Shown: positions 3,221 through 20,605 of the stretch, one piece after another
How the letters are laid out: the number at the start of each line of letters is the position of its first letter
Position numbering within the stretch: the stretch's first letter is position 1
Source of the DNA: Candidatus Helarchaeota archaeon
Lineage (GTDB): Archaea; Asgardarchaeota; Lokiarchaeia; Helarchaeales; HEL-GB-A
DNA: 21,021 nt
NCBI GenBank assembly: GCA_013375455.1
Contig: JABXJT010000083.1
Span: 1 to 21,021, forward strand
Direction: 5' to 3'
Notes under the pieces: generated by a model
Database searches by the model: none
Told to the model about the DNA's origin: nothing
The model's input: only the letters and a program-made list of their open reading frames with translations
Program-made: the position numbers and the translations under genes

Positions 3221-4426
3221 TTAAGTTGGTTTCTTATTAGAGGCAGTCCTTTTTCTCTTCTTTGTAGTTCTTTTTCTTTTTTTCTTGGTAGAGGGGGTTT
3301 TTTTCTTGCTGGTAGCTGTTTTTTTCTTTTTTCTAGGAGTTTTTGCTCGCTTCTTTTTGACACCTGGCGCCTTCTTTTTCTTGACAACCGGTGGTTTCGC
3401 TTTTTTGTACAGTAATTCCGCCATTTTTGTAAAAGATTCGTTAACATTTTCTCCTGTTAATGCAGAAGTCTCATAATAGTCGAGACGTAATTTCTTTGTC
3501 AATTTTTCTATCTGATCTTTCTGTACTTCCCTTTGATCGATCAGATCGTTCTTGTTCCCTAAAATCAGACCTCGCAGATTTGTCTTTAGGTAATCTTTGA
3601 TATCTTCATACCAATGGGGAATGTTTTTAAAAGATTCGGGGGCAGTCAAATCAAACACTAAGAGCAACCCGTCAGCCCCTTTGTAGAAATAGCTTCGCAT
3701 TTTCTCAAATTTACTTTGGCCTGCGATATCCCATATGACAAATTTGATGCTGGCATCTTCGTATTCAAGGAATTTCTCACTTAAATTGACCCCTATGGTG
3801 GGGATGTACGTTCTTTTAAATGCATTATCCGTGAATCTTAGAATGGTTGATGTTTTCCCAACCGAGGGGTCCCCACAAACAATTAACTTGTATCTATACC
3901 TTGTTAATTCTGGAGCTTCTTCCTTAACTGTAGGGAACGCAGCAGTTTCTTCATCAGGAATTTCAGTACTCCGTAATTCTGTTAAAGTCTCTTGTATTCT
4001 TCTCTTAAACTTAAGAATTTCCTTGGTAATTTTTTTCGTATCTGGCTTTTTTTCTTCTATTTTGATGATTTTTTTCGCTAAATCCGTAAAAAGGCTTTCA
4101 AAATTCTTAATGTATTTATAGAAAATGACATCGTCTACCTCGTCAAAGAGCAGCGTAATCGAGCTATCAATAGCGCCGCCACGACTTTTCATATCCATAA
4201 TTTCTAAAAATTTTACTAAACCCTTGGAATTAATGGACGGGAACGGAATAATTGCTAATGATTCGGGAACTTTTCCGCCCTCGCCGGCAAGAATTTGAAT
4301 GGTTTTTAAACTAATTAAATCCCTTATTTTAAAAGGTATCTCGGAGGGATCCCACACGATGGCTGTCGGTCCAGCCTTATGTTCAAATTGCGAATAGATA
4401 ATCGCCTTAATGAAGTCCGTACTCAT
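3221..4426 (-). CDS. Rab-like small GTPase with N-terminal longin-like domain and lysine-rich tail
   Basis: A 401-residue, three-part protein. Residues 1-120 form a globular domain opening with IKAIIYSQFEHKAGPTAIVW, a pattern I read as longin-like; a DENN-N-like fold is an alternative. Residues 120-175 are a charged, probably helical linker. Residues 178-340 are a complete Ras/Rab-type G domain: GDPSVGKTS at 185-193, switch I PTIGV at 209-213, DIAGQ at 233-237, NKND at 291-294, ETSAL at 319-323. Residues 341-401 are an extremely basic tail rich in Lys, Arg, Thr and Ser. No C-terminal cysteine is present, so prenylation as in eukaryotic Rabs is not possible at the end; the tail may instead bind acidic lipid or nucleic acid. 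AAAAGGA 7 nt upstream supports the ATG. It starts 27 nt after the Rag-like gene upstream, so the two are probably co-transcribed. Confidence 0.92.
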   Translation of the reverse strand: MSTDFIKAIIYSQFEHKAGPTAIVWDPSEIPFKIRDLISLKTIQILAGEGGKVPESLAIIPFPSINSKGLVKFLEIMDMKSRGGAIDSSITLLFDEVDDVIFYKYIKNFESLFTDLAKKIIKIEEKKPDTKKITKEILKFKRRIQETLTELRSTEIPDEETAAFPTVKEEAPELTRYRYKLIVCGDPSVGKTSTILRFTDNAFKRTYIPTIGVNLSEKFLEYEDASIKFVIWDIAGQSKFEKMRSYFYKGADGLLLVFDLTAPESFKNIPHWYEDIKDYLKTNLRGLILGNKNDLIDQREVQKDQIEKLTKKLRLDYYETSALTGENVNESFTKMAELLYKKAKPPVVKKKKAPGVKKKRAKTPRKKKKTATSKKKTPSTKKKRKRTTKKRKRTASNKKPT

Positions 4427-4453: not shown

Positions 4454-5368
4454 CTATATTTCTATTTGTGCTACCATTGAATTAAATTTGGACTGAATTG
4501 CACCTGTATCGAGCTTCTCATCGCTCACTGTAAGTAAAAATATCTCCCATTCTTTAAATTTAACTTCCATGAAATTAAATCGTTTTTCTTTATTTCTAAG
4601 GTTCAGAATAAACTCAAAATTCTTTGCAAAGTTTGCGGACTTGTCTGCCATTTGAGGATTCGTTTGAGACATATAATAGACGCTATTATATGTCATGTTC
4701 AGACAGGTTTCCTCCATTTCATGATTTCTATAGGCTTCACTCAGAATATAAAGTTGATTATCGAAAAGGATAAGCCCGTCTAAGTTGAGTTGACTCCGAA
4801 GGGATTCAAGCAATTTTCTGAAGGGTTTCAAGGTTACAATGAGTTCTTGAAAATTTTTCGAAAAGGCATCAACAATAGATTTCCTATCATAAATTGATGT
4901 AATGAATGTAGTTACTTCCAAGCCGCTTGATCTTGCCTCGAATATTTGTTTCACGTGGTCAATAATTTCAAGGGTATGTGGGTTATTTCGGATGTTTGGA
5001 TCGATCTTGTGGATGCATAGGACGACTTTGGTTTTCAGATCAAGTTTCTTGAAATTTTCAAGGATATCTGTATAGTATTGAAGGGATTCTTCATATCTAT
5101 CTGGATTAAGCGCGTCAACAACATAAAATAAAGAATCCGTTTCCGCAAAAATCTTGACATCCTTGATATAGCCTTCCCGGAATTTTAGCTGACCTCCCAG
5201 ATCCCAACAAAGGATTGGAATGCCTAGAATTTGAATTTCATCTCGTTCAATTCCTGCCGTAGGCTTGATATTATCCATCATAGTATACTTATTATGTAGA
5301 ATGTTGAGGATGGACGTCTTTCCAGCTTGGTCTAACCCCACAAGTAAAATTTTCCTTCTTTCAGTCAA
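4454..5368 (-). CDS. Rag/Arf-like small GTPase with C-terminal roadblock-like domain (paralogue 1)
   Basis: A 304-residue paralogue of the protein at 477-1412. Motifs: GLDQAGKTS at 11-19, switch I KPTAGI at 35-40, DLGGQ at 56-60, HKID at 120-123, TSIYD at 157-161. The C-terminal half (about 181-300, containing DGLILFDNQLYILSE) is the Rag-type roadblock-like domain. Two in-frame TTG codons are possible starts, at 5374 and 5368. I choose 5368: AAAGGGA abuts the first TTG but stands 6 nt from the second, and the resulting N-terminus aligns residue for residue with the paralogue. It is the first gene of the minus-strand run, 27 nt before the longin-Rab gene, and is divergent from GH31. Eukaryotic Rags work as obligate heterodimers of two paralogues, so these two could pair; this is inference. 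Eukaryotic Rag function in nutrient sensing should not be carried over without test. Confidence 0.92.
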   Translation of the reverse strand: MTERRKILLVGLDQAGKTSILNILHNKYTMMDNIKPTAGIERDEIQILGIPILCWDLGGQLKFREGYIKDVKIFAETDSLFYVVDALNPDRYEESLQYYTDILENFKKLDLKTKVVLCIHKIDPNIRNNPHTLEIIDHVKQIFEARSSGLEVTTFITSIYDRKSIVDAFSKNFQELIVTLKPFRKLLESLRSQLNLDGLILFDNQLYILSEAYRNHEMEETCLNMTYNSVYYMSQTNPQMADKSANFAKNFEFILNLRNKEKRFNFMEVKFKEWEIFLLTVSDEKLDTGAIQSKFNSMVAQIEI

Positions 5369-5412
5369 TTGCAATCCCTTTATCTGTGAGTTTTATCAAA
5401 ATTTATCTCTTA

Positions 5413-5512: not shown

Positions 5513-8005
5513 ATGGCAAATATTAGTATTAAGAAGATTTTATGGGTCTATCTTAAAAATCGGTTGAGATATCCCTTTCTTAAAAATAAATTGAGTGATT
5601 TACAACCAAATGTATTCTTCGGTTATACTGATCATCCTTTAGATGTGCAAGGGACCCCCATATCGACGATGTTCAATGCCCTCTCCAAGTTGCGTCGGAA
5701 GAAGTCAAAATTTATTTTTCGTCTTGAATTCAGAAAACGCCAAAATAATTCTTTCATTTTCTTTGCGAAGGCTTACAATATTTTCAAACTTTCTCATTAT
5801 CTCAAACTATCAATAGAATCGATCACCGATTTTAGTGAATATGGTATAAATGACAAAACTAAATTTACCGAATGCACCCTCCAGTTAGATTTCCTCCGAG
5901 AAGAGGTCTATCGGCTTCGTTTATGTGAAGGGCTTGCGGTGCCTGAAAATCAAACCCCAATGATCGCAAAAGACATTCGAGATCTACAGTTACAAGTTCA
6001 ATTTGAAGAAACCGAGGAAAAATTTGTGATTTCTACTACTAAACTCCAGTTGAATATCTATAAAAGGCAATTCCATATTGAGATTTTGGATAGTCAAGGA
6101 CATTTGATCACGGAATCGGGAGGAAAGACGAAGGATGAATTTCCCAATGCCTTGGATGCATATCCACTCGGATTCATTAAAGATAAAAAATATATACACT
6201 GGTTTGGAGTTGAATCGTTCGTCCTCTATCCAGGCGAGGCGATCTACGGTCTAGGGGAGCAATTCGGGCCTTTGAATAAGGTCGGACAAACCATTGGATT
6301 GTGGCACTTTGAAGGATTCGGTAATACCGCTGGACGTGCCTATAAAAACATACCATTTTTCATAAGCACTCGGAAATACGGTATTTTTATTAACGAAAGC
6401 AAGCCCATTACTTTTTGGGTAGGATCGCGAGAATATTGCAAGACTCAAATAGCAATTGAGGGGAATCTCATTGATTATTTCTTCTTTTACGGTTCATTCA
6501 AAGAAATTCTGAATAATTATACTGAATTGACCGGAAAAGCGGCGATTCCACCGAAATTTTCCTTTGGGGTGTGGATGTCCCGCATCACCTACAAAACTCA
6601 GGAGGAGGTTATGGAAGTTGCGAAAAAGTTGCGGGAGATGAAATTCCCATGCGATATAATACACATCGATACTGCTTGGTTTGAAAAAGATTGGATGTGT
6701 AATTGGCAATTTGGAAAGAAAAACTTTCCTGAGCCCCGCGAAATGTTCGAAACCTTGCGAGAAATGGGATTTCGCGTTTCATTATGGCAGGTACCTTATG
6801 TCATTGACGAACTCGACGTGTATAAAGAGGCTAAGAAAAAGAAGATTTTAGGCAAAAACAAAGGTCCTTTTATTTTCCTCCTCAGTTCTCCCGCTCATGC
6901 CATTGACTTTTCGAATCCTGAGGCGGTTACTTGGTATCAAGAGAAATTAAAGAATTTATTCGACTTGGGTGCATCTGTTATTAAGGCAGATTTTGGAGAA
7001 GGAATTGAACCCCCTACTAAATTCCAGAAATATTCTGGACGACAAATGCATAACCTTTTCCCCTTGCTATATAATAAGGCTGCCTTTGAAATTACTGAGA
7101 AAACATTTGGCGAAGGGATAATTTGGGCTCGAAGTGCTTATGCTGGCTCCCAACGTTATCCAGTCCATTGGTCTGGTGATAACTCGTCCAACTTTGAAAA
7201 CATGCTCTGCTCATTACGCGGGGGCCTCAGTCTAGGTCTTTGTGGCTTCACGTTTTGGAGTCAAGATACTGGAGGGTTTGTTGGAACTCCCACCGATGAC
7301 CTTTATATTCGCTGGACTCAACTATCGATTTTCCAATCTCATATTCGTTATCATGGAGAGGGGCCCCGATATCGGGAACCTTGGAATTATGAACCGAAAT
7401 CCCAAGATATAGTGCGGAATTATCTCAACTTCCGCTACCAATTGATCCCCTATCTTTATTCTGAGTCAAAAGTTGCAGCGCGACAAGGACTTCCCCTGCT
7501 ACGCCATCTGGTAATCGAATTTCAAGATGATCCAAATGTTTTTAACATAGAAGACCAATTTCTTTGCGGACAAAACCTGTTAATCGCCCCCATACTCACC
7601 CAAAACAACACTAGGCGGTTATACTTACCTGAGGGCACTTGGTTTAACTACTGGACTGGCGAACAGTTGAATGGTCCCAAATGGATAACTCTAACCTCTG
7701 ATATTGACACCATTCCCCTTTTTGTTCGGGCAGGAATCATACTTCCCCTCGGTCCTGAGGTTCAATGCACTGATGAAATGACGGATGATTGGCTAATGTT
7801 AAGGATATATCCAGATAAGGCCGGTAAAGCCTCCTATAAAATCCTCGATAAGGAAAAAACTGTTCAAATTAATGCCCAATTAGAAGAAAACTCGTTAAAA
7901 GTCGAAATTAAACCAAAACCTGCGCAGGTTCAGGTTGAGCTGCCAAAAAACATAAAAATTTCCTCTCTTTTCGTTAATGGAAAATTAGTGAATTCAGGAA
8001 TTTAA
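5513..8005 (+). CDS. GH31 glycoside hydrolase, alpha-xylosidase type
   Basis: An 830-residue family 31 enzyme, expected to release alpha-linked xylose (or glucose) from non-reducing ends with retention of configuration. The N-terminal half is a beta-rich mutarotase-like domain, including YGLGEQFGPL. The barrel begins near FGVWMSRITY. The nucleophile is Asp493 in KADFGEG; the acid/base is Asp556 in HWSGDNSSN. The KxDFGE form, followed by QMHN and later RGGLSLGLCGFTFWSQDTGG, matches the YicI/XylS alpha-xylosidase group rather than plain alpha-glucosidases. No signal peptide is seen, so it should act on imported oligosaccharides in the cytoplasm. GTGAGG 8 nt upstream supports the ATG. It heads an operon whose next gene was originally about 15-20 nt downstream; a 788-bp insertion now separates them, and the last 150 bp of this gene are duplicated at 8813-8962. 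Confidence 0.92.
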   Translation: MANISIKKILWVYLKNRLRYPFLKNKLSDLQPNVFFGYTDHPLDVQGTPISTMFNALSKLRRKKSKFIFRLEFRKRQNNSFIFFAKAYNIFKLSHYLKLSIESITDFSEYGINDKTKFTECTLQLDFLREEVYRLRLCEGLAVPENQTPMIAKDIRDLQLQVQFEETEEKFVISTTKLQLNIYKRQFHIEILDSQGHLITESGGKTKDEFPNALDAYPLGFIKDKKYIHWFGVESFVLYPGEAIYGLGEQFGPLNKVGQTIGLWHFEGFGNTAGRAYKNIPFFISTRKYGIFINESKPITFWVGSREYCKTQIAIEGNLIDYFFFYGSFKEILNNYTELTGKAAIPPKFSFGVWMSRITYKTQEEVMEVAKKLREMKFPCDIIHIDTAWFEKDWMCNWQFGKKNFPEPREMFETLREMGFRVSLWQVPYVIDELDVYKEAKKKKILGKNKGPFIFLLSSPAHAIDFSNPEAVTWYQEKLKNLFDLGASVIKADFGEGIEPPTKFQKYSGRQMHNLFPLLYNKAAFEITEKTFGEGIIWARSAYAGSQRYPVHWSGDNSSNFENMLCSLRGGLSLGLCGFTFWSQDTGGFVGTPTDDLYIRWTQLSIFQSHIRYHGEGPRYREPWNYEPKSQDIVRNYLNFRYQLIPYLYSESKVAARQGLPLLRHLVIEFQDDPNVFNIEDQFLCGQNLLIAPILTQNNTRRLYLPEGTWFNYWTGEQLNGPKWITLTSDIDTIPLFVRAGIILPLGPEVQCTDEMTDDWLMLRIYPDKAGKASYKILDKEKTVQINAQLEENSLKVEIKPKPAQVQVELPKNIKISSLFVNGKLVNSGI

Positions 8006-8083: not shown

Positions 8084-8605
8084 TTATTTCACCTTTGTTA
8101 ATATAAATGCGCCAATTAAATAAATAGTACATATAATCAATCCAATTGCCACATCTGCTTCTACACGAAACCATATTTTAAATAATTCAAATAAGCTTCG
8201 CGTTGCGTGATGTCCGTGCAGCCACTTATCAACCCACCAGCAATTCCAATCCTCCAGTGCGCCCATCGTGCCATTTGTCGCCCAAATAAGAAATCCTAGT
8301 TTTATCGTTTTCCACGTGTCAATAGTGCCAGTGAATCGCTTTTGTAGAATGATGTAAAATACCCAAAACGCCACACACAGTGAAGCAAGCGTCACGAACC
8401 ATAAAGTTGCCACATATGGTAAGGATAATTGCGTTTCGGCGCATTCCCAGAACACTGTCATTTCCCAAACGGACACGGACAAGTAAATGAATGAAATAAC
8501 AACAAACGTGAATATGTAAAGCGAATCAATCCGGAATAAGAATAAAATGAAAACACAAATTCCTAAGAAGAGCACGATGCTTCCATATATTTCAAAGTAC
8601 GTCAT
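8084..8605 (-). CDS. Multi-helix membrane protein carried by the inserted block
   Basis: A 173-residue membrane protein with about five hydrophobic segments (near 5-25, 28-50, 63-90, 100-116 and 149-170). Between the fourth and fifth is a polar stretch rich in Trp, Cys and His (EDWNCWWVDKWLHGHH), the most likely functional part. I recognise no family. The ATG at 8605 overlaps the 3' end of the truncated frame upstream by 14 nt, and a further ATG-initiated frame begins 4 nt after its stop, so it was once the middle of a tightly packed unit. It lies antisense to the glycosidase operon and is the only complete gene of the insertion. No clear promoter of its own remains, so expression is uncertain. 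Confidence 0.72.
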   Translation of the reverse strand: MTYFEIYGSIVLFLGICVFILFLFRIDSLYIFTFVVISFIYLSVSVWEMTVFWECAETQLSLPYVATLWFVTLASLCVAFWVFYIILQKRFTGTIDTWKTIKLGFLIWATNGTMGALEDWNCWWVDKWLHGHHATRSLFELFKIWFRVEADVAIGLIICTIYLIGAFILTKVK

Positions 8606-8812: not shown

Positions 8813-8980
8813 AAAACTGTTCAAATTAATGCCCAATTAGAAGAAAACTCGTTAAAAGTCGAAATTAAACCAAAACCTGCGCAGGTTCAGGTTGAGCTGC
8901 CAAAAAACATAAAAATTTCCTCTCTTTTCGTTAATGTAAAATTAGTGAATTCAGAAATTTAATCAAAATTTGGAGCGTAT
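8813..8980 (+). repeat. Direct repeat, copy 2 (before the CrtC/AttH-type gene)
   Basis: This is a 168-bp copy of 7856-8024. It contains a non-functional duplicate of the last 49 codons of GH31 plus its stop. It ends exactly inside the first ATG (8979-8981) of the following gene and supplies that gene's GGAG ribosome site. Two base changes and one deleted T relative to copy 1 all fall in the last 45 bp; in GH31 terms they would change Gly to Val and Gly to Glu. Confidence 0.97.
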
Positions 8981-8984
8981 GAAT

Positions 8985-9980
8985 ATGAAGGACAAAATTA
9001 TAGCGTACTTAGAAGCAAAAGGCATAAAAATTAATGATAATTTCTCGAAATATCTCGAAGGCAGAGTTGAATTAACGGATCAAGATGAATACATGCACGT
9101 TGTTGAATCCTACCCCCCACATCATAATGAAAGTTGGTACTTTAACTTCATTGATCGTCCGAATAATGTCTTCTTCATCACGAGATTATCGTTTGAAATG
9201 GATAAGAAGAGAGCGTTAATCCTAGTTTTATTAGTAATTGATGGCAAGGCGACTAATTATTTCACCGTAATTCCGGTTGAAAAAATGCCGGATAATTGGG
9301 AATTTGATAAGAAATTGAAATATTATTGCATTAAACCGATGAAACAATGGCGCGTCAAGTATGAAGATAGAAAATTTGCTTTGGACGTCACCTTTGATGC
9401 ACGGTTTCCCGTATTTAATTCGGCTCCTGAAGACCCCGTGGCTGAAATTGAAAAGTATGGTCTTGAGATGCTCGATGTAGCTGCCCAACAACATTATGAA
9501 CAAGCCATGATCGCAACGGGTACGTTGGTTTTGAAGAAAAAAGGTGAAACCCGAAACATTGAATGCTTTAGCCACCGTGACCATAGCTGGGGGACTAGAG
9601 ATTGGGTCAATATAGATGCCTGGAATTGGGTCGATGCTCAATTTGAAGATAAATCGGTTAATTTTGTTAGATCAGACGTTTTAGGGAAAAATCCTCAATT
9701 CGGCGCTCTTTCTACAAAGGATGAAACTATTAAAATCGTAAAAGTTGAAGTCAGTACAAAAACTAAGGATGATGGGAAAACTCCAGTCTCTTCGACGTTT
9801 AATCTGACCGATGAAAATGGAAAAGAAATAACAGTTGTCTCCAAAACCATCTTTTCGGTGCATCTACCTCTCCCCTCTGAAAAAGGGATCACCGAGATTT
9901 TCGAACAAGTTGCGGTATTTACTTGTGAGGGTAAAGAAGGCGATGGGATTTCAGAATATTTGATATCGACACGTCGTTAG
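8985..9980 (+). CDS. CrtC/AttH-superfamily protein (DUF7064/DUF7065-like)
   Basis: A 331-residue, beta-rich, probably cytosolic protein. Near residues 49-52 it has ESWYF-type sequence, and at 197-207 the signature HRDHSWGTRDW, typical of the lipocalin-like double-barrel AttH/CrtC superfamily. Members include hydroxyneurosporene synthase and Diels-Alderases, but most are uncharacterised. A sugar-related role is suggested only by its position between GH31 and GH1. ATGs occur at 8979 and 8985; GGAG at 8972-8975 is 3 nt from the first and 9 nt from the second, so I prefer 8985. A TTG at 8970 is less likely. Its stop codon overlaps the ribosome site of the GH1 gene 8 nt downstream, so the two are translationally coupled. 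The direct repeat upstream preserved its ribosome site when the insertion occurred. Confidence 0.8.
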   Translation: MKDKIIAYLEAKGIKINDNFSKYLEGRVELTDQDEYMHVVESYPPHHNESWYFNFIDRPNNVFFITRLSFEMDKKRALILVLLVIDGKATNYFTVIPVEKMPDNWEFDKKLKYYCIKPMKQWRVKYEDRKFALDVTFDARFPVFNSAPEDPVAEIEKYGLEMLDVAAQQHYEQAMIATGTLVLKKKGETRNIECFSHRDHSWGTRDWVNIDAWNWVDAQFEDKSVNFVRSDVLGKNPQFGALSTKDETIKIVKVEVSTKTKDDGKTPVSSTFNLTDENGKEITVVSKTIFSVHLPLPSEKGITEIFEQVAVFTCEGKEGDGISEYLISTRR

Positions 9981-9988
9981 GTGTTGAA

Positions 9989-11347
9989 ATGGACGTCAAG
10001 TTTCCTGAGGCTTTCATATTTGGCGCCGCAACATCAGCCTATCAAATAGAAGGTGCGCTGAATGAAGATGGAAGAGGCGAAGTTTTCTTCGATCGCATCT
10101 TTCAATTAGCGAATTTTGACGCAGATCCGAATATTGCCTGTGATCACTACCATCGATACAAAGCCGACGTGCAATTGATAAAGGAATTGGGGCTCCAAAG
10201 CTACCGCTTCTCGATCGCTTGGGCACGAATTTTTCCAAAGGGGAGCGGGCAAATTAACGAGAAGGGAATTGAGTTCTACAATAACTTGATTAATGAATTG
10301 CTATCGAATGATATTGAACCTCTTGCGACTCTGCACCATTTTGATATGCCAAGTGCGCTTTACACCAAAGGGTGGCAAAATATCGAAACGATTGCTGCAT
10401 TCAAGCAGTTTGCAGAAATTTGTTTTGAGCGATTTGGAGATCGGGTAACACGGTGGATAACTTTCAACGAGCCATGGGTCGATCAATTCCTCATTCCATT
10501 TTCAATTCAAGAATTTACAAATCCAAAGCCGTCAATCAAACAAGACAAGAAACTTTTTGCGAAATGTTTAAACAATTTACATAGCATGTTCAAAGCTCAT
10601 GCAGACGCCATCAAGGCTTGCCGCGACCTGATTCCAGAAGGAAAAATTGGGATCACCTTAAATTTAGCACCCTGCTATCCCCTAACCGATTCCAAGGAAG
10701 ATAAAGAGGCTGCAGAAAGATGTGATGCTTTCTTAAACGAGTGGCATTTGGGCTTAGCGTTGAAAGGCGAATATCCCGATGATTTATTTAACTATCTTCA
10801 AGAGGCAGTTAATGCGCCAACCATAACGGATGAAGAAATGGCTTTAATTAAGGATAGCAAATCAGACTTCATTGGGGTAAATTTCTACGGTCCCTCCTAT
10901 ATCAAGATGGGACAAAAGCGGTTTCCGCTCAACTATGATGAATACAAGGGAGAGCGATCACGGGAGTGGGCTAATAATGCGAAAGTCGTGCCGGAAGCAC
11001 TTCACGAAATATTAGTTCGAATTGATCGCGATTATAATTCTCCAATAATCTACATAACAGAAAATGGGTGCAGCTTTGGCGATGAACGTTTGAATGATGA
11101 AAAGGACGAATGGCGAATTGATTATCTAAAAGCCCATCTCCGAGAAGTAAAGCGAGCGATGGATGATGGCGTTAAAGTTGAAGGATATTACGCGTGGAGT
11201 CTGATGGATAATTTAGAATGGGCCCAAGGATATGAAGAACGATATGGATTAATTTACATTGATAGAGAACACAATTTAAAACGCTATATAAAAAAGAGTG
11301 GGCATTGGTATTCAGAAGTCATAAGGAATCGTGGATTCAATACTTAG
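9989..11347 (+). CDS. GH1 beta-glycosidase (beta-glucosidase type)
   Basis: A 452-residue family 1 retaining beta-glycosidase, full length for the family. Signatures: N-terminal FIFGAATSAYQIEGA, the substrate-binding HHFDMPSAL segment, acid/base Glu161 in TFNEPW, nucleophile Glu358 in YITENG, and the C-terminal YAWSLMDNLEWAQGY that binds the glycone. No signal peptide is present, so it acts in the cytoplasm, most likely on short beta-glucosides. With the GH31 enzyme it could dismantle xyloglucan-type oligosaccharides: removal of xylose exposes glucose for this enzyme. AGGTG overlapping the preceding stop supports the ATG. Only 15 bp separate its stop from the convergent giant membrane-protein gene, so no room remains for an independent terminator. 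Confidence 0.95.
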   Translation: MDVKFPEAFIFGAATSAYQIEGALNEDGRGEVFFDRIFQLANFDADPNIACDHYHRYKADVQLIKELGLQSYRFSIAWARIFPKGSGQINEKGIEFYNNLINELLSNDIEPLATLHHFDMPSALYTKGWQNIETIAAFKQFAEICFERFGDRVTRWITFNEPWVDQFLIPFSIQEFTNPKPSIKQDKKLFAKCLNNLHSMFKAHADAIKACRDLIPEGKIGITLNLAPCYPLTDSKEDKEAAERCDAFLNEWHLGLALKGEYPDDLFNYLQEAVNAPTITDEEMALIKDSKSDFIGVNFYGPSYIKMGQKRFPLNYDEYKGERSREWANNAKVVPEALHEILVRIDRDYNSPIIYITENGCSFGDERLNDEKDEWRIDYLKAHLREVKRAMDDGVKVEGYYAWSLMDNLEWAQGYEERYGLIYIDREHNLKRYIKKSGHWYSEVIRNRGFNT

Positions 11348-11362
11348 AAAAGAATTTATGAA

Positions 11363-14300
11363 TTAAGCAATATGCACGATGAACATCAAAATAATCAGGA
11401 CCAATGTATCGATGAATCCTCCAACTAGGAGCCCTAGACGCAAGTAGGCATAACTTGGGTTTTGTGCCTCTTTTCTTTTTACGAGTTTGAAGCTCCCGAA
11501 ACACCCGGCTGCGATGGAAATGAGGATAATAAACCAGATTCGCATCATAAAGTCGGCGTCAGGCGCGAAGAAAAAGTAGCTGATAGAACCACCGACAGCC
11601 CCAAGAGCTGCGAGGTAGAGGAGGGTATAATCGGTCCACTGATACGCTCTCGGAAAAATCGGATAAATAAAGACGATGACGGCAACCGCTGCAAATAGAA
11701 CTTTAAGCATTGTTTGGTCCCTGATGAAGGGATGAATATACCCGGTAGCGATAAAAGTGAAAATAGCCATCGTTGCCGCGATACAGACCATTAAGATCTT
11801 GGTATTTTTCGTTAATAATCGAAAAGGCTCATATTCGACCACAAGCGGAACGATAAGCACTAAACCAATCAGGATCGGAACGATAGTATTTAGATAGATG
11901 TCTGGATCCGATTGATATCGAATCACGCCATAGACCCAAAATGTATACATGCTGAGAAATCCGCCAATTATGGGGATGAAAATGTAAATATTCTTCCAAT
12001 ATCGCTTGGGAATCACATCTTTGAGCGATAAGACGAAAATGATTAGGATCCCAACGAGGACAGGTACAAAAACTCCGATAAGCCAATCGACTTTAAGCAC
12101 TTCGATGAGGAGCCAGCCCAAACCAACATTCAATGCTAATGTCATTATTGAAAACATATACTTTCTAAGGTCAAACTCGACGGGGGAAAGTGGTGGTTTA
12201 ATCCATAACACGGAAAAAATCATTAGACCTATCATGATACCTGGTAACAGTGCAGCGAACTCGATCCCTATCCAATAGAACCCGATAAATGCAAAGCAGG
12301 TTGAAATCATTATCCAAATGTATTTATACATTCCCCAATTCATTTCAGGAAAAGCTGCAGATAGAGCAATTAAATTCCCCCAAGCAAACAAACCTAAGAA
12401 AAACGCGTCTGGCCAAGCAGCAACTGCCACTAAGTTGACTAATGAATAATAAATGGTAAAGAAGACTGCAAATGTTAATGCAACATAGAGTATTCTTATG
12501 AGTTTTTTGTGTTTTTGCCAGAATGCTCGCCCCAATGCCAAATTTAATCCAACAGTTAACGCAACTGCGGCATACAAAATGGCATCATCGGGAAGCACCA
12601 CTGCAAACCGTAACATCCAACAATAGAGGGTAAGGGTAAGTGAAACCGTGAAAAAGCTCCAAAGCACATCTGTATATTGCTCATTCTCAATGGATACTAT
12701 AAACAATGGTAATAAAAGCACCGAATAAATTAGGAATCCAAGTGAAATTGATAGCAGATGATCGCCTGTATATAAAATGTTCAGGTTAGCAATGAAAATT
12801 GTTAGAGGAAGGGGCGAGATAGCCCAAAGAAATTCAGGAATTCGCCATTTAATCAAATCACTTTTTTTAAATCCCCAATAAAAACCAAAAGCCAGCAGAA
12901 AAGTGAAATAGGAGATTAACATTATGTCCAGTCCCGGAGCCATGTACATTAGACCGAAGAAGAAAAATCCTAAGATAAATAATGGAAAAATTACATAGGC
13001 ATAAGAGAGATATGGGCCAAGAAAATCCCGAAACCTCTTAGAAAGCAAGAATAAGGCATAACCAATAGTAATGGTTATGATCAGGCTCAACCATAAACTT
13101 TCAATTGCGAGGAGAATGAAGAAGCACCAGAAGAACAGAATGCACGTTGATATGTTAAAAATTCCGAGTATCATCCAGAAGAACGAATTATAAAAGCGAT
13201 CTAGCAATGTTTGGGATTGAATCACATTCTTTAGACTGCTGTAGAAGATTAATATAAGCCCTGAAAAGAGAAAAGCTCCGAAAGCAACAACATAGATAAA
13301 TAATTCAGGTCCAACAAACAAGTAAGAACTGTAATAAGAAAGCCCTAATGTTATCGCTACGGTAAAAATCATGTATGAGATAAACCTTTCATTCACGCTA
13401 AATTTTGATGAAAATGATGGGATACTTAATAGGATCCCAGTCACGATCAATGCATTCATAAATTGTATCACGCCAAATTCCCCTACAACCAAAAAGGTGT
13501 AATACCCGACAAGAAATCCGATGTTGATGGCCATTGAATACCAGACAATCCAAGAGAAGGTCCATTTCTTGCGACTAAAGGTGATGATTAGAGAAATGGA
13601 TAATTCGATCAGGAGGGCGTATGACACCGTAAGAACCATATCGGCGGTGAAAAGATAGATATAATTGAATAAAAGGGCCGTCCCAGCAATGCTTAACGCA
13701 GTCCCGCCTATCCACAACCAATCAGAAGAGTGATCAAAAAGGGGCAGGGACATAATAAATAGCGTGAAAAATCCTATCAATAAAATCCAAGTAACGACTC
13801 CTGATAGGATGGAACTGAGGGGGCCATAGAATAGTATTGATAGCGAACATCCCAACGCCACCCATAGCCCCGCAACGATTTTCTTAGGTACTTTTCGAAG
13901 AGCTGGGAGAATCAAACCTAAGGCAAGGATAGTACATGATATATAGAGCGTGCTGTATGAGAGATCCAATTTGAGATAAGTATCTGAAAGCATCCACACT
14001 CCTACAGCAGTTGGAACAACGATCAATGCCACATATAAAATGTTAGCAATTAACCACCATCCTTTAGTCATGCTGCGAATGAAAACATAAAAGAAATAAA
14101 CAAAACCCGAGATGTATAATGCCCAAGGTTCGATCACTATGAGTAACATCCAGAAAAGGAAGAAGAACAAACCAACGGAGAGAATGATTTCTTGAATACT
14201 TTTTAGGTGTTGTTCTGAAAACCTAGGAGAACGGCGGAAGTACTCTTTTTGAAAACTTAGGAGAATGGCGAAAATAATCAACCCTAATGCAAGGCCTAGG

Positions 14301-17300
14301 TAAATGCTGACGTAAATTGTTCCTATAGTAAAAATAAAGAGTGAAAGACATCCATTCGCACTAAAGAGCAAATAATCAAATAATTTTTCGTAGCTCCGTG
14401 AATAAAACAGGAATAAATAAAGACCGATAGTTAAAGATAGGAGAATCCTTGCAACAATATCAAATCCAATAATTAAGCCCGCCAGTTGATATACAAGTAA
14501 TGTGGCTGAAACAAACGATATAATAGTAAAAATGAATAAATATTTCTTATCGACTCCAAAAGTTTCAAGTCTGCTGCACAAAGCCATCCCTACCAGCATA
14601 GCGATGAATAAAGCTGCCAAAAATTCATCAAATGGTACGGGGAATTCAGGGATGTGAAGAATTCTCAACCCCCATAATATTAGAAAGGCTGAAACAACTG
14701 AAAATCCACTCCACGTAGCAATCCCTATGCGTGTTTTCGTATATTTGGTTACTTTGAGCAAAATGAGAGTGGAGGTAAAATAACAAACTAAGGGGATCAA
14801 AAAGATAGGATAGAGCGTAATATACTCGGATTGAAGTACTGGAAATTCTCCAGCAGGAGTTAAAACAACAAATGAAACAAGAAATCCCAGTAGAATTGAG
14901 GATGTTATCGTGATCGCTTGCCAAAGGACCTTCCAAAATTTAGTGGATGATGGAATGATGAGGAGTTCGAATATGAGAGCGGTTAACAAGAAATTAAAAA
15001 TATTATCTGTAATAAAAAAGACATACACGCCAAACCAAGAGAATAACAATGCGATGGATGCACTCACATACATCCACGAATAGATCCACCAGTTACGTTT
15101 CAATACTTGAAATTTATTCAACACGAGAAGTTCAAACCCTAAGATGATTGAGGATATCGCAGCCGAAATCAAGCTCCTCGCAGTAGCGTCAAACATAAAA
15201 AATGAGTTGAACAACAAGAAATACATAAATATTGGGATGAGAAAACAAGCACCAAATCCAATTATTCGATTTACCCACCTTCTTTCAACCTCAAACAGCA
15301 CGAGTGGATACAGACTGAATAAAAAGATAAGTCCAGCAAATAAAACAGTAATAACCTGATCAAAATTATTCACTAGAGCAAAGAAAATAGCAAGGAAGGT
15401 AATTCCAACTGATACTAAGGGCCAAGATATTCGCCCAATTTTTTTAGGGATGTTTGGAAATGTTGTTATTAAGGTTAATTGGAACCCCACGATGAGTAAG
15501 GAGATGCTAATTAATGATAAAAAATTCCGACCATAACCCGTCAAGAAAAATGCAACCCCATTTCCAATGCTCAACCCTGCCCAAAGCAAAGCGGATACTT
15601 TCCATATTTTTAAGAAATAGACCACAATTGCAAAGGTAAATGTGATTATAACCATTGTAAAAATAGTTGCAACAAAAATTTCCTGAAACCAAAAGAAGAA
15701 CGCCGTAACATACGATAATGGAATCAACTCTGCCCAGACAATAAACCAAGATAATCGGAAATTCTCGCGCCATCGATAAAAAACAATGGGTAGTAGTAAA
15801 ATCGTGAAAAGAGAGATTGCAAGACAAGCTCCAAATACCTGGAACTCCATTCCAAGAGGTTGAAAGCTAAGATAAACCAAAAATGCATTTACGACTGGAA
15901 TTGCAATCCAAGCCTGCCATCCCTTTTCCCAAATCCGTTTCGATAATTCCCAAAAATAACAAGCCAAACACAGGTAGTAAAAAAAGACTCCGAAATCTAT
16001 AGCTAAACCAATACTAATTACTAATTCTACCCCCTGATAGAAGAACAAGCCACTCCAGACTGCTAATGAGCCTGAGATCACAGAAATGCCCAAAAGAATA
16101 ACAACCTGGTTTTCCTGTAAAAGGGAGAATCTTTTCATGAACATTGAAAATATGAAAAAGGAAAGCCCTGCAGAGGTGAAGCAACTTACCATGACGCGAA
16201 TGTAAATCTCTTGCGTCAGAAAGAGCGCATTAAACCCAATTAGAGTAAAGAGTAGGAAGATTCCCACAAAAAAAATGGAAAAAATAGCCCAACCTTGCTT
16301 TTTAAAGTAGAGATATAGCCATAGGTTACTTATTAAAAACCCACTAACCAACCAAGGTAGTACTGATAGGAAAAAAGCTGAGAAAGTTAATATCATTGGG
16401 TTAGCCAAATAATACGCGTTGTAAATTAAAGTTAATAAAATAAAAAAGGTTGTTGCACCAATTAACCCGAATTTTAAGTTTGATTTGAACTTCCACAAAG
16501 TGAGAGACAGGAAAAAATAAAGGCACGTTACAATTGCAAGGCAATCGAACAGAATATAGAGCGAATCAAAATATTGGAAAGTCGCATAAGGGCTAATGAA
16601 ATCAAAAATACTTTTATAAATGATTACACCCAAAACAACAGGAACCCCAATGATGAAGTAATTTCCAAAATATTCACTGGAATAAATGGCTTTCCAGCCA
16701 ATTAAGATTATCAAAATTGCAAGTGCTACTCCTAAAAACAGATTATTTGCATAAATTGTAATGATAGAAGATATGAAAATTCCGAAAGCAGCGCAAGATA
16801 CTGTCAGAAATCTTTTATCTGTAATGATTTTAACTACTAACTTCCTAAAGGCCTCAGAGAAGATGCACGCCATTCCAATAGATACGAACACCACGAAGGT
16901 GATGTTGAATGCTTGATATTCCGGTGTCGTATAATAGGTAGGATTTAAGGTATTCAAAAGGAAGTAAAGGAACACTGAATTCGCAATGACACAGGACCAG
17001 AGAGAGATTTCTAAAATGCGACTTTTTTGTGTCTCAGTCAGGAATTCCTCAATATCACCATGCTTAAAGACAATCCGACTCAGAAGTAGGAACAAATAAA
17101 TTGCGACTATGATCGCTAGCGGTAAAAAAGCTTGAAGCAAGACTCCAACGAGAAAGCTAACGGTAAAACTTAAAGCAATAGAATCCAGGAATATACCCAA
17201 ACTTGCGCTTCGTCGCGAAATTAACTCATACTGTTTATACAGGGAAAGCATTATGAGACCTAAAAACAGATCGATTGATAAAACTAAGAAGACCGTGGCA

Positions 17301-19720
17301 ATAAGGTCGATAACGACAAGAATAATTAGGTTGTAAAGGAAGATAAACAATCCAACAAAGAATAAACAGAAAACAACCATGAAAGGTACATTTCTTTTGT
17401 AATATAGATGAATGGGTGCTGAAAAAAGAGGAAAAACCGTGAAAAATATCCCTACTGCGAGCACCCAATCACTCGCAACTAAAATTGGAATTCCTGCAAG
17501 AATGAGCGCAAGATTTGCTACTAATAAATGTCCAACAAACTCGAGTACTTTGCGATAACGTTGTTCATCCAGAAATTGCGCTCTATAAACAATGTATAAA
17601 TCCGGGATTAGAAGTAAGAAAAACGTAAAAAAGACGAATGTATACTGATAATATACGTCAAACCAGGGGAGACTCCATAAAAAGAAGCAAATAAAAGCGA
17701 CGATAAGACTAAAATTAACGCTTGATAAAGCAAAGTACGATCTCTCGGGGAAAAGATCGCCTTTAAACCCGAAATAATAAGCGGGAAAAAGCATCAATGT
17801 CACTAATATAACTAATAAGAAAACTAATGTCGTGATTTCGATTGAAATTAATACTAAACTTAAGACACTAGTAGAAATTATTGTGAAAAACAGGTACGTC
17901 ACTAAAGTAAAGCGGTAAAGCTGTTGGACAGTTCCGACCTTCAAGCCAAAACTGACTGGAATAATAAGTTGAAATACTATCAACCCTATCCAAATGGCGA
18001 GAAATGAGCTTAGTACTGGTTCCCCAGCGATGTTAACCCAAATAAGTGCTAAAATGATACCAAAAGAAACAGATGCTTGATTTAAGATGATAAACCGCTT
18101 TCCCGCTACAATAGCTAAGAGAGGAATCATCAAGAGGCCAAAAAAGATTAAAAAGCATGCTGAAAATCCCATCCATCCATTGGGATATCGTAATGTAAAT
18201 AATGAAAACACTATCGCGAGTTGCAAGTTAATCAGAGCTGAAATGTAAAGGCTGAATCGATATAATTGCTCTTTCGTTATGAGTTCGCCTGCCTTTGCCC
18301 ACACCAAGCTTACTGAGAAAAGAAATGTCCCAACTAGTAATCCAACAAAAATCCCAATCTCGATGATGGGAATATTCCAACCAAGGAGGAATCCGACTGT
18401 AAAAGATAGAATCATCCAGTTTATCAGGTTTAGCTGGTAATAATCTCTCTTCTCAAGGAATTTCCGTCCTAATCCTAGGAGGAGAATACCTATCAATAGC
18501 GCAGTTATGACTAGCAGCGCCCCAAATATCGCATTAACCAAATCTAGATACCTTAAATATATTGGCGTGGCAATTATGATCCCAAATCCCCAGATTAAGT
18601 TTATTGAGTTGATGTAGTACAAAAACTTCTTCTTTAAGGGGATGTTGAAAATAATCATCAAGAATCCGACGGCGACACCAAACGTGCCTCCCGCTAGGAG
18701 TGGAGTTGCTACATTCAATACCAGTACTGCAAAAAGCGTAGCTAAATCGAGACTGATCCCAAACCCCGCAATGAGCCGCGAAGTACTATATAATTCCTCT
18801 GAAATCAATTCTCCTTTAAATGCAAAATACATGGTCGCAAACGATATAGAGAGAATCCACAGAATTACAATTACGGTCCAAATTAACATATCAAACAATA
18901 GAAAGTTGAAGAAAGAAATTCCGAAAATTGAAACGCACAGAAAATCTAAGATGAAAATTTTGTTCCACACGGTGGTCGAGATGATTTCAGTCGCGGAAGA
19001 GACGATTGCATTTAAACAAAGATGTATCAAGAAGCCAATGGCGCAGGTAAGGAAAAAACTCATCAAGTAATTCATACTAATAAAATAAATGCCCCCATAG
19101 ATCAACAATGCTAAGCCCAAATTGAATACATTCACGGTCAGAAGAATGACAAGTTTCTTCGAGGGAATTAAATTCCTGAAAATTGGTAAAATTGCTCCTA
19201 GAATTATTAATCCAAGTCCGAAGCTCGAAACAAGATTCCCAAACCACCAAAAATAAGAGCTATAGACAATAATGGTCAGGACGTCAAGGAGCAAGACCGT
19301 TGAACCAAGGTTATTCAAATTTTGATGAGTATCTTCAGAAATTTTCTCTCTTGATCCCAAATAACTTATGTTTAATAGAAAAATAATTGCTTCGAGCAGA
19401 ATGGCAAAGAACCAGAGTAGGAGGATGGCAACGGGATCTCCAATGAAAATTGAGAGGATGGTAAAATATTGGATGACAAATGCGATGAAGCCCCCATTGA
19501 TGAGGAGCGCTCCAATTTTGGCTTCCTGCATTAATGTTACAATGGCGCCGGCAAACGAGACAGCCAGCGCTGCACTAATGAACGGATTTGCCTCAGCATG
19601 TGGAATGAAAAAATAGAGCAAGAAGAATATTAAGACCGGAATGATAAATAAAAGCATCCAATATTTCATGCTCTTTTCGAGCCTATCAGCTACCCTCTCT
19701 ACCTTTGAAATTATAATCAC
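11363..19720 (-). CDS. Giant polytopic membrane protein of tandem helical hairpins (2785 residues)
   Basis: A single uninterrupted frame of 2785 residues, almost all hydrophobic helix; only the first 20 residues and short loops are polar. From about residue 184 to 920, polar or basic loops followed by a hydrophobic hairpin recur at about 184, 245, 304, 361, 421, 480, 540, 596, 655, 716, 776, 833 and 893, a period of 56-61. Several loops share a pattern, e.g. LISEELYSTSR, LITKEQLYRFS, GTVQQLYRFT, LFPERSYFALS, FLDEQRYRKVL. Two helices per unit imply roughly 46 hairpins and 80-95 helices. Basic loops on one side predict the same inside orientation for every hairpin. No ATP-binding, catalytic or known transporter motif is visible; I recognise no family, though long bacterial multi-helix proteins such as DUF2339 are a loose analogy. 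The GTG start lies 6 nt after the RING gene and abuts AGGAGG, unusually close; Met18 is an alternative. Confidence 0.9.
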   Translation of the reverse strand: MIIISKVERVADRLEKSMKYWMLLFIIPVLIFFLLYFFIPHAEANPFISAALAVSFAGAIVTLMQEAKIGALLINGGFIAFVIQYFTILSIFIGDPVAILLLWFFAILLEAIIFLLNISYLGSREKISEDTHQNLNNLGSTVLLLDVLTIIVYSSYFWWFGNLVSSFGLGLIILGAILPIFRNLIPSKKLVILLTVNVFNLGLALLIYGGIYFISMNYLMSFFLTCAIGFLIHLCLNAIVSSATEIISTTVWNKIFILDFLCVSIFGISFFNFLLFDMLIWTVIVILWILSISFATMYFAFKGELISEELYSTSRLIAGFGISLDLATLFAVLVLNVATPLLAGGTFGVAVGFLMIIFNIPLKKKFLYYINSINLIWGFGIIIATPIYLRYLDLVNAIFGALLVITALLIGILLLGLGRKFLEKRDYYQLNLINWMILSFTVGFLLGWNIPIIEIGIFVGLLVGTFLFSVSLVWAKAGELITKEQLYRFSLYISALINLQLAIVFSLFTLRYPNGWMGFSACFLIFFGLLMIPLLAIVAGKRFIILNQASVSFGIILALIWVNIAGEPVLSSFLAIWIGLIVFQLIIPVSFGLKVGTVQQLYRFTLVTYLFFTIISTSVLSLVLISIEITTLVFLLVILVTLMLFPAYYFGFKGDLFPERSYFALSSVNFSLIVAFICFFLWSLPWFDVYYQYTFVFFTFFLLLIPDLYIVYRAQFLDEQRYRKVLEFVGHLLVANLALILAGIPILVASDWVLAVGIFFTVFPLFSAPIHLYYKRNVPFMVVFCLFFVGLFIFLYNLIILVVIDLIATVFLVLSIDLFLGLIMLSLYKQYELISRRSASLGIFLDSIALSFTVSFLVGVLLQAFLPLAIIVAIYLFLLLSRIVFKHGDIEEFLTETQKSRILEISLWSCVIANSVFLYFLLNTLNPTYYTTPEYQAFNITFVVFVSIGMACIFSEAFRKLVVKIITDKRFLTVSCAAFGIFISSIITIYANNLFLGVALAILIILIGWKAIYSSEYFGNYFIIGVPVVLGVIIYKSIFDFISPYATFQYFDSLYILFDCLAIVTCLYFFLSLTLWKFKSNLKFGLIGATTFFILLTLIYNAYYLANPMILTFSAFFLSVLPWLVSGFLISNLWLYLYFKKQGWAIFSIFFVGIFLLFTLIGFNALFLTQEIYIRVMVSCFTSAGLSFFIFSMFMKRFSLLQENQVVILLGISVISGSLAVWSGLFFYQGVELVISIGLAIDFGVFFYYLCLACYFWELSKRIWEKGWQAWIAIPVVNAFLVYLSFQPLGMEFQVFGACLAISLFTILLLPIVFYRWRENFRLSWFIVWAELIPLSYVTAFFFWFQEIFVATIFTMVIITFTFAIVVYFLKIWKVSALLWAGLSIGNGVAFFLTGYGRNFLSLISISLLIVGFQLTLITTFPNIPKKIGRISWPLVSVGITFLAIFFALVNNFDQVITVLFAGLIFLFSLYPLVLFEVERRWVNRIIGFGACFLIPIFMYFLLFNSFFMFDATARSLISAAISSIILGFELLVLNKFQVLKRNWWIYSWMYVSASIALLFSWFGVYVFFITDNIFNFLLTALIFELLIIPSSTKFWKVLWQAITITSSILLGFLVSFVVLTPAGEFPVLQSEYITLYPIFLIPLVCYFTSTLILLKVTKYTKTRIGIATWSGFSVVSAFLILWGLRILHIPEFPVPFDEFLAALFIAMLVGMALCSRLETFGVDKKYLFIFTIISFVSATLLVYQLAGLIIGFDIVARILLSLTIGLYLFLFYSRSYEKLFDYLLFSANGCLSLFIFTIGTIYVSIYLGLALGLIIFAILLSFQKEYFRRSPRFSEQHLKSIQEIILSVGLFFFLFWMLLIVIEPWALYISGFVYFFYVFIRSMTKGWWLIANILYVALIVVPTAVGVWMLSDTYLKLDLSYSTLYISCTILALGLILPALRKVPKKIVAGLWVALGCSLSILFYGPLSSILSGVVTWILLIGFFTLFIMSLPLFDHSSDWLWIGGTALSIAGTALLFNYIYLFTADMVLTVSYALLIELSISLIITFSRKKWTFSWIVWYSMAINIGFLVGYYTFLVVGEFGVIQFMNALIVTGILLSIPSFSSKFSVNERFISYMIFTVAITLGLSYYSSYLFVGPELFIYVVAFGAFLFSGLILIFYSSLKNVIQSQTLLDRFYNSFFWMILGIFNISTCILFFWCFFILLAIESLWLSLIITITIGYALFLLSKRFRDFLGPYLSYAYVIFPLFILGFFFFGLMYMAPGLDIMLISYFTFLLAFGFYWGFKKSDLIKWRIPEFLWAISPLPLTIFIANLNILYTGDHLLSISLGFLIYSVLLLPLFIVSIENEQYTDVLWSFFTVSLTLTLYCWMLRFAVVLPDDAILYAAVALTVGLNLALGRAFWQKHKKLIRILYVALTFAVFFTIYYSLVNLVAVAAWPDAFFLGLFAWGNLIALSAAFPEMNWGMYKYIWIMISTCFAFIGFYWIGIEFAALLPGIMIGLMIFSVLWIKPPLSPVEFDLRKYMFSIMTLALNVGLGWLLIEVLKVDWLIGVFVPVLVGILIIFVLSLKDVIPKRYWKNIYIFIPIIGGFLSMYTFWVYGVIRYQSDPDIYLNTIVPILIGLVLIVPLVVEYEPFRLLTKNTKILMVCIAATMAIFTFIATGYIHPFIRDQTMLKVLFAAVAVIVFIYPIFPRAYQWTDYTLLYLAALGAVGGSISYFFFAPDADFMMRIWFIILISIAAGCFGSFKLVKRKEAQNPSYAYLRLGLLVGGFIDTLVLIILMFIVHIA

Positions 19721-19726
19721 CCTCCT

Positions 19727-20605
19727 CTAATTCTCCTCCTTTAACTCCTCTTCGCTAATTTCCTGCTTGCAGTATGGACACGTATTTTTTATCTTCAGCC
19801 ATTCACGTAGGTGATCGCGATGTGCCGGTGAGTTGCAATGCGGGCATGTTAGTATTGATTCCTTATAATTAATGTTCAATAGGCACACGGAACAGGTTTG
19901 TAACAATTTTTGGCAAGTTATACAGTATAACTCTCCTTTTTCTGTTGGAGTCTCAATTGGAGTGCCACATTGATGGCAAGTATCCACCTTTTCCGTTGGA
20001 ATTTCTTTTAATTGTTCTTTTCTAAACTGTTCAAGTGCTTGGTCAATAACATCTCGTTCGAGATTGTCCAACCGCCAATATAACCTCTCAAGTGCGGAGA
20101 CATTGAATGCGAGACTCTTATTCCATACAAAAAATCCCAACACGATGAACGTCACGGCAAACAATCCCACCCCTCCCAGCAGATATCCCAGTGAGAGTAG
20201 ATTTTGCACGTCCATCGCGCCTACACTCACCGTCAATATTGTAAATACTGCGAGAATGCCAACCAGTCCCGCCTTAAAAACCTTTTTATAATAGGGCTTG
20301 AAGTCCAAGTCAAGTTCAATTTTCGTGCTATTTTCCCCCTTCTCTTGTAAATTGATATTAATATTGCAAGAGGGGTCTTCGAGGCTCTTTCCCTCGACCA
20401 AAATTTTATAATTATTCTCTTGCTCTTCTATGATTTGAACAGAACTCTCCCTGAATTTTTCTTCTAGCGCCTTTATAAACCCCTTTACTTCATCCTCACA
20501 AACAGAATGCCGTAACCTATAAGTTTTTTGTTTCGGTACTGTCTTCGCCTTATAAAGGATAATGGTCTCTCGTTCCTCACCTCCATTCTTCGGCAAAGTT
20601 TCCAC
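19727..20605 (-). CDS. Membrane protein with zinc ribbon and prokaryotic-type RING finger
   Basis: A 292-residue protein. Residues 1-108 form a soluble, strand-rich domain of unknown type. Two membrane helices lie at about 111-130 and 137-160. A charged helix (170-205) follows, then a zinc ribbon (Cys210, 213, 228, 231) and a RING-like finger (Cys238, 241, 254, 257, His262, 265, Cys276, 279). The CxxC-x12-CPxC-x4-HxxH arrangement followed by CPYC resembles prokaryotic RING (Prok-RING) families; eukaryotic relatives act as ubiquitin ligases, but no ubiquitin, E1 or E2 gene is in this window. It is the first gene of an operon with the giant membrane protein, 6 nt downstream, so the two probably act together in the membrane. 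Start: GTG at 20605 fits a leaderless transcript from the TATA element at 20627-20634; TTG at 20596, with AGGTG 5 nt before it, is the alternative. Confidence 0.85.
   Translation of the reverse strand: METLPKNGGEERETIILYKAKTVPKQKTYRLRHSVCEDEVKGFIKALEEKFRESSVQIIEEQENNYKILVEGKSLEDPSCNININLQEKGENSTKIELDLDFKPYYKKVFKAGLVGILAVFTILTVSVGAMDVQNLLSLGYLLGGVGLFAVTFIVLGFFVWNKSLAFNVSALERLYWRLDNLERDVIDQALEQFRKEQLKEIPTEKVDTCHQCGTPIETPTEKGELYCITCQKLLQTCSVCLLNINYKESILTCPHCNSPAHRDHLREWLKIKNTCPYCKQEISEEELKEEN

Follow-up and report, generated by a model that had tools for sequence, protein, structure and literature searches.

The described protein closest in design to the one reported here is Arc3A, a member of the massive polytopic bacterial membrane protein family DUF2339 (PF10101), which has 35 predicted helices in P. 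aeruginosa and limits the accumulation of lysophospholipids under phospholipase attack (PMC8926400; the comparison also cites PMC12663445). Arc3A is further characterized by a predicted N-terminal lipidation, an arrangement that spans the periplasm, and a partner, Arc3B, in all of which it differs from the protein described below. In Hrd1 and Doa10, which represent another point of comparison, a RING finger resides in the same chain as the transmembrane helices, and these are far fewer than in the giant protein. Piezo, finally, has a chain of similar length, is built from 4-helix units, and carries a large extracellular cap. Its trimer comprises 114 helices and is termed the one with the most passes of any known membrane protein (PMC9256749), which corresponds to 38 helices per chain (114/3) as compared to the ~95 predicted in one single chain here.

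The window, i. e., the whole stretch of 21,021 nucleotides that was analysed (contig JABXJT010000083.1 of a Candidatus Helarchaeota archaeon, assembly GCA_013375455.1), encodes such a giant protein of ~95 helices. This observation is confirmed and surprising, while the functional readings discussed below are predicted only; to our knowledge, no protein that we could name has more helices per chain. With Arc3A/DUF2339 it shares the presence of many transmembrane segments without an enzyme domain, but with ~95 instead of 35 predicted helices. The original prediction knew of no described prokaryotic family of this size and simplicity; in Arc3A/DUF2339 (PMC8926400), however, a family of similar simplicity, if smaller, has been described. 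Similar to Piezo, very many helices occur in arrays of repeated helix bundles; however, the repeating element consists of a 2-helix hairpin, and the predicted extracytoplasmic loops are 14 residues long at most, hence leaving no counterpart of the cap. Neither Piezo domains in Pfam nor Piezo chains in the PDB were matched at E values up to 1, although both libraries contain Piezo entries.

The Gene and Its Start Codon

The features first relevant here are the following:

11363..19720, minus strand: gene encoding the giant polytopic membrane protein (2785 aa from GTG), ~95 helices, N-terminus predicted to be cytoplasmic
19721..19726, minus strand: AGGAGG, located between the upstream TAG (19727-19729) and the GTG and directly abutting the latter without a spacer
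19727..20605, minus strand: gene of a RING-like membrane protein, 292 aa, hydrophobic segments at residues 113-131 and 142-160, CxxC at 210 and 228, finger at ~237-280

The giant gene is a single open frame of 2785 codons that runs from 19720 to 11363 and starts with GTG, in line with the unbroken 8.4-kb frame that had been predicted with no strand named; the plus strand of the same region is stop-rich in the same frame. Its GC content is even (0.35-0.40 across 1-kb blocks), as is its codon-position bias (T at 48-52 % of second codon positions in six successive stretches). Given this evenness and relatives that track its length, the frame is coding.

Less clear is the start codon, for which both the GTG (2785 aa) and Met18 (2768 aa) are candidates. 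The database copy of the protein (P0002) has 2768 aa, consistent with a start at Met18, and an AGGAGG touching the start codon is an unusual spacing. Moreover, the annotated starts of the relatives differ: those of P0004 and P0005 align near residues 2-4 of the giant protein, whereas P0003 is annotated to begin only close to residue 47. For these reasons, the assignment is uncertain.

A Putative Family of Giant Asgard Membrane Proteins

Relatives were sought across ~5.8 billion proteins by a search that detects only those sharing short exact words and in which proteins below ~985 residues were never candidates, such that shorter or more distant relatives are possible. The window protein (P0001) gave four matches among 4191 candidates, i. 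e., its own copy P0002 as well as P0003, P0004, and P0005. When a profile built from residues 993-2785 was used, six matches were obtained among 7289 candidates, which added P0006 and P0007. P0007 as query, in turn, retrieved P0008 besides itself, here among those 7994 candidates that had the most words in common with it. P0003 (2549 aa), P0004 (2591 aa), and P0005 (2608 aa) are each encoded by one gene and are collinear with P0001, with the exception of a 189-residue block absent from all three and small gaps; as annotated, P0003 is also devoid of the first ~46 residues. Identities to P0001 amount to 50 % (P0003), 46 % (P0004), 45 % (P0005), 48 % (P0006), and 25 % (P0007). P0006 has 1497 aa, lies on a 6157-base contig, and starts within the family, so that truncation and a truly shorter gene are indistinguishable, while P0007 and P0008 are marked as partial in their records. 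P0003 and P0007 stem from Candidatus Helarchaeota, P0006 from Promethearchaeota, and P0008 from Candidatus Hodarchaeota, all four being Asgard archaea.

A single-gene Asgard family of similar length had been named beforehand as support for the prediction, and it is indeed represented by the collinear P0003 (less ~46 N-terminal residues), P0004, and P0005, with P0006-P0008 being shorter or partial. The converse scenario, a fusion of several shorter genes by assembly, was not borne out in view of these three single collinear genes at 45-50 % identity. More generally, it is highly improbable that the frame is an artefact, i. e., a chimeric assembly or functionless: the window comes without a whole genome for comparison and P0006 is shorter, both of which would fit such an origin, but three long collinear relatives on other contigs and the even composition and codon bias speak strongly against it.

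For domain searches, Pfam was scanned (hmmscan) with the whole P0001 and P0003-P0005 at E values up to 1, and with P0001 in nine consecutive pieces and one overlapping piece, as well as with P0004-P0008, at E values up to 10, at which HMMER discards most matches above ~0.1. No credible match emerged for the scanned family members in Pfam, NCBIfam, or PDB sequences. Enzymatic, ATP-binding, or extracellular domains, which had been predicted to be absent, were likewise not found in these three libraries, and there is no known long membrane family in Pfam or NCBIfam (DUF2339 included) and no credible PDB sequence that covers most of the length. PF10101 in particular was matched neither by P0001 (whole or in pieces) nor by P0003-P0008 at E values up to 1 or 10, and the DUF2339 family occurred in none of five plasmid records searched. 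The hits to mitoregulin (E 0.54, or 0.037 in one piece), LapA_dom (0.15), GET2 (4), and Arteri_Gl (4) are attributed to chance, and VMA21, a 77-residue PDB chain (E 0.056), was set aside for the same reason. Residues 1250-1300 may resemble DUF5684-like motifs, but the piece covering them gave no Pfam match.

PADLOC returned nothing for P0001, P0007, and the RING-like protein (E up to 0.1), and Rfam nothing in the window at gathering scores. A scan of genome contigs with the giant-protein alignment gave 42 pattern-matching stretches, none of which was confirmed. The same holds for 48 stretches obtained with two RagA-like GTPases of the window as query, selected in order to capture Asgard genomes:

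477-1412 and 4454-5374, minus strand: two RagA/Arf-like GTPases, mutual identity 52 %

As even these GTPases remained unmatched, the contig scans say little on an absence from Asgard genomes. A scan of viral contigs (179 stretches, none confirmed) and tblastn searches in phages and plasmids (E up to 0.01) were negative, and the family is undescribed by title or abstract in the open-access literature among the matches listed. Taken by their sequences, P0001-P0008 represent a separate, new family of very large membrane proteins from Asgard archaea, the general design of which is a variation on giant polytopic proteins like DUF2339.

Topology of the Giant Protein

The mean Kyte-Doolittle hydropathy of the giant protein is +1.21. 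A greedy count of 19-residue segments yielded 90 hydrophobic segments, and dynamic programming on the hydropathy averaged over homologues yielded 95, 95, and 93 at three thresholds, in agreement with the 80-95 helices expected. However, raw helix counts are weak evidence for a membrane topology, since residue-shuffled sequences already give 81.5 ± 2.6 segments by the same dynamic programming. The alternating charge of the loops, in contrast, is not due to chance: 130 Lys/Arg are found at even loops as compared to 13 at odd ones (91 % on one side), whereas across 20 shuffles the larger side holds only 55 ± 4 %. In addition, the Lys/Arg show a 58-residue periodicity. With ~95 predicted helices and this alternation, the notion of a 2785-residue protein that is nearly all transmembrane is confirmed.

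The charge rule was kept in all six aligned sequences, with a Lys/Arg split of 129:13 for the homologue-averaged segments of the giant protein and, after transfer of the boundaries via the alignment, of 120:15, 126:15, 129:12, 65:9, and 97:19 in P0003-P0007, respectively. Segmented individually, P0007 has a split of 0.84, and P0003-P0006 show a weak one (0.54-0.63 versus 0.54-0.57 in shuffles), which we ascribe to single missed helices that flip the register.

The hairpin pitch is 58.4 ± 3.4 residues (46 spacings), resulting in 47 hairpins and one additional helix. Predicted extracytoplasmic loops have a median of 4 and a maximum of 14 residues, predicted cytoplasmic loops a median of 11 and a maximum of 23, and 73 % of all residues lie in predicted helices; accordingly, there is no room for a soluble domain. 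By parity, the N-terminus is predicted to be inside and the C-terminus outside, whereby one helix more or less would alter the C-terminal side. AlphaFold2 with 4- and 7-sequence inputs gave mean pLDDT values of 42.6 and 43.0, rendering the models unusable for seeking grooves. In their secondary structure, these low-confidence models placed exactly one helix of at least 15 residues on 32 of the 33 segments predicted for residues 1-1000, and likewise on all 40 of those for residues 1116-2315.

Internal Repeats and Growth

Profile self-comparison with a four-sequence alignment gave scores of up to 49.7, with 111 of 903 pairs above 25, whereas 500 comparisons of reversed segments reached 23.5 at most. 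The regions concerned, and a module that differs between relatives, are:

18254..19414, minus strand: internal repeat copy 1, residues 103-489, ~6-7 hairpins (profile self-comparison, permutation control)
17015..18352, minus strand: internal repeat copy 2, residues 457-902, offset 354 changing to ~411 (self-comparison, permutation control)
14312..14878, minus strand: six-helix module TM56-61, residues 1615-1803 (189), absent in P0003-P0006, counterpart in P0007

In this clearest match, the offset is first 354 and then ~411 (six, then seven hairpins), as if residues 457-902 were a tandem copy of residues 103-489 to which one hairpin had been added. Altogether, eleven match clusters were found, six of which have offsets that deviate by no more than 0.06 from integer multiples of 58.4 (6.06, 7.02, 3.00, 5.99, 1.99, and 33.97), the other five being less close (8.84, 11.63, 17.74, 19.13, and 6.25). 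Since loop alternation alone favours such offsets, these were not relied on, and permutations within each helix and loop (40 per pair) were used instead. Nine pairs were put to this control, picked after their scores were known and with the clusters at offsets 1117 and 116 left out. One of them (180-390/355-560) is self-overlapping and therefore void; seven of the remaining eight beat all 40 permutations, and the pair 265-430/2250-2405 was equalled or exceeded in one of 40. Repeats at the DNA level comprise nine families of 24-36 bases and are short and weak, so that any duplications would be old.

The two largest gaps checked between relatives each correspond to a set of complete helices, namely TM56-61 and TM46-49. 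The latter is absent from P0007 in an alignment that is less certain at 25 % identity and in which P0007 also has other insertions. Judged from these comparisons, the giant protein appears to have grown via duplication of hairpin blocks.

Such growth, the regular pitch of 58 residues, and the fact that no catalytic signature was found would also fit a scaffold or shaper, in which the hairpins assemble into a rigid ribbon or disc and thereby curve, thicken, or compartmentalize the membrane, with no action on single lipids. The membrane protrusions for which Asgard cells are known likewise favour this possibility. However, an array of purely structural function would perhaps have diverged further than the 45-50 % identity and near-constant length seen in three relatives, and altogether we consider a scaffold somewhat unlikely.

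Conserved Positions

Helices are slightly more conserved (0.54) than cytoplasmic (0.52) and extracytoplasmic loops (0.47), which argues for selection on the membrane part. The longest highly conserved stretch comprises residues 1201-1620 (mean pairwise identity of 0.60-0.66 per 60-residue block), and this peak suggests a site, counting against a mere scaffold, though weakly so, since the lone blocks 121-180 and 2281-2340 also reach 0.65. The conservation moment calculated per helix was not significant (p<0.05 in seven of 86 helices, from five sequences at most and with nine helices excluded for missing columns), and lipid-facing sides could not be located by this means.

The helix cores of P0001 contain only 21 D/E/K/R/H. 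Among the close members, 19 core positions (D/E/K/R/H/N/Q) are identical, and seven of these carry a charge (D259, D707, R882, K1036, D1242, E1585, and E2039). P0007 covers eight of the 19 and keeps three, D1242, N1278, and N2312. Two of these delimit the region in which a binding site, if there is any, would be placed:

15887..15997, minus strand: candidate functional site, residues 1242-1278, with residues that stay unchanged even in P0007 and P0008, the distant members

The invariant residues in this candidate site are D1242, Y1249, C1254, Y1255, W1257, S1260, K1261, I1263, W1264, K1266, G1267, W1268, W1271, P1275, and N1278. That charged and polar residues are retained here even in P0007 and P0008, and that seven core charges are invariant in close members, would be explained by a solute or ion transporter that was enlarged by duplication and has its site around D1242, K1261, and N1278; internal repeats are, moreover, common among transporters. 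On the other hand, no transporter family was matched in Pfam, NCBIfam, or PDB sequences, the size is far above that of usual transporters, and P0007 retains only three of the eight invariant polar or charged core positions that it covers. A transporter is therefore an unlikely explanation.

The Upstream RING-Like Gene

The gene of the RING-like membrane protein has the same orientation as the giant gene and ends 6 bases before the GTG of the latter; owing to this short gap the two are probably co-transcribed. Its finger scores 28.2 bits with zf-RING_2, barely above the cut-off of 27.3, and in the PDB the protein matches eukaryotic RING chains (RNF24, E 1.3e-4; synoviolin very weakly, E 0.097). 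The order of ligands in the finger is unusual (CxxC, CPHC, two histidines, CPYC), and two separate CxxC pairs that are reminiscent of a zinc ribbon precede it. This protein may be a partner or regulator of the giant protein.

As in Hrd1 and Doa10, a RING-type finger is thus associated with a polytopic membrane protein, but the finger resides in a separate adjoining gene and no RING is present within P0001. One could envision a split counterpart of Hrd1/Doa10 for membrane-protein quality control, with the RING-like protein as E3-like partner and the giant protein as polytopic platform. The upstream position at 6 bases on the same strand with AGGAGG in between, the matches of the finger to zf-RING_2 and eukaryotic RING chains, and the ubiquitin systems known from Asgard archaea are all compatible with this idea. 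We nevertheless regard it as quite unlikely, considering that the gene pairing was observed in a single window, that the finger barely passes the cut-off and deviates from the textbook RING-H2 ligand order, and that the giant protein has no similarity to Hrd1 or Doa10 in Pfam or PDB sequences.

Proposed Role in Lipid Handling

By analogy, the giant protein may work like Arc3A/DUF2339, with a similar design and undetected homology, and its likeliest, if tentative, role would be that of an intramembrane lipid-handling body. Therein, ~47 helical hairpins would follow each other in series from an inner N-terminus with nothing notable beyond the bilayer, and the chain would fold into one large helical assembly. 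At ~1 square nm of membrane per helix, this assembly would occupy ~100 square nm. With no recognised catalytic or ATP-binding part, it would presumably work passively or via a partner, and lipid molecules might be bound, sorted, or moved in grooves between the helices, as modelled on Arc3A/DUF2339.

This role is favoured because, apart from Arc3A/DUF2339, we found no characterised protein of comparable design. It is also in accordance with the alternating-charge topology, the lack of soluble parts, the few core charges (21 D/E/K/R/H), the slightly higher conservation of helices, and searches that revealed no enzyme, ATP-binding, or receptor domain. Conversely, no sequence link with DUF2339 emerged, none of the neighbouring genes in the window can be recognised as lipid-related, and the seven invariant core charges would suit transport as well. 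Neither the helical moment, which did not locate lipid-facing sides, nor the AlphaFold models, too poor for seeking grooves, lend it support, and the weak charge split of individually segmented P0003-P0006 (0.54-0.63) also weighs against it. Furthermore, archaeal ether lipids are not substrates of phospholipase A, so that the job of Arc3A cannot be transferred literally.

A more far-reaching and rather doubtful extension of lipid handling is a new class of single-chain intramembrane bodies, which would create a protein-dense, lipid-sorting membrane territory coupled to the RING-like partner and might represent a membrane domain built from protein at an early stage of eukaryote origins, on their archaeal side. 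If lipid handling holds true, the bacterial Arc3A/DUF2339 class would extend to the archaea nearest to eukaryotes and its mechanism could be tested from one gene. A single chain of ~95 helices also poses a problem of insertion, folding, and protection from aggregation.

Other Genes in the Window

Further genes of the window are:

5513-8005, plus strand: GH31 glycosidase
8970-9980, plus strand: DUF7065/DUF7064 protein
9989-11347, plus strand: GH1 glycosidase
3221-4426, minus strand: Ras-family GTPase, domain at residues 180-339, long lysine-rich C-terminal tail
1504-2583, 2689-3108, and 8084-8605, minus strand: three hydrophobic proteins without Pfam match

The GH1 gene lies 3' of the giant gene in convergent orientation. 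Together with GH31 it flanks the DUF7065/DUF7064 gene, the frame of which ends 8 bases ahead of GH1. The hydrophobic protein at 1504-2583 shows six hydrophobic peaks, none of which falls into its C-terminal part, and the first ~180 residues of the Ras-family GTPase gave no Pfam match. This GTPase and two membrane proteins are flanked by the pair of RagA/Arf-like GTPases, resulting in a small GTPase cluster, and the presence of RagA-like and Ras-like GTPases would be consistent with an Asgard genome.
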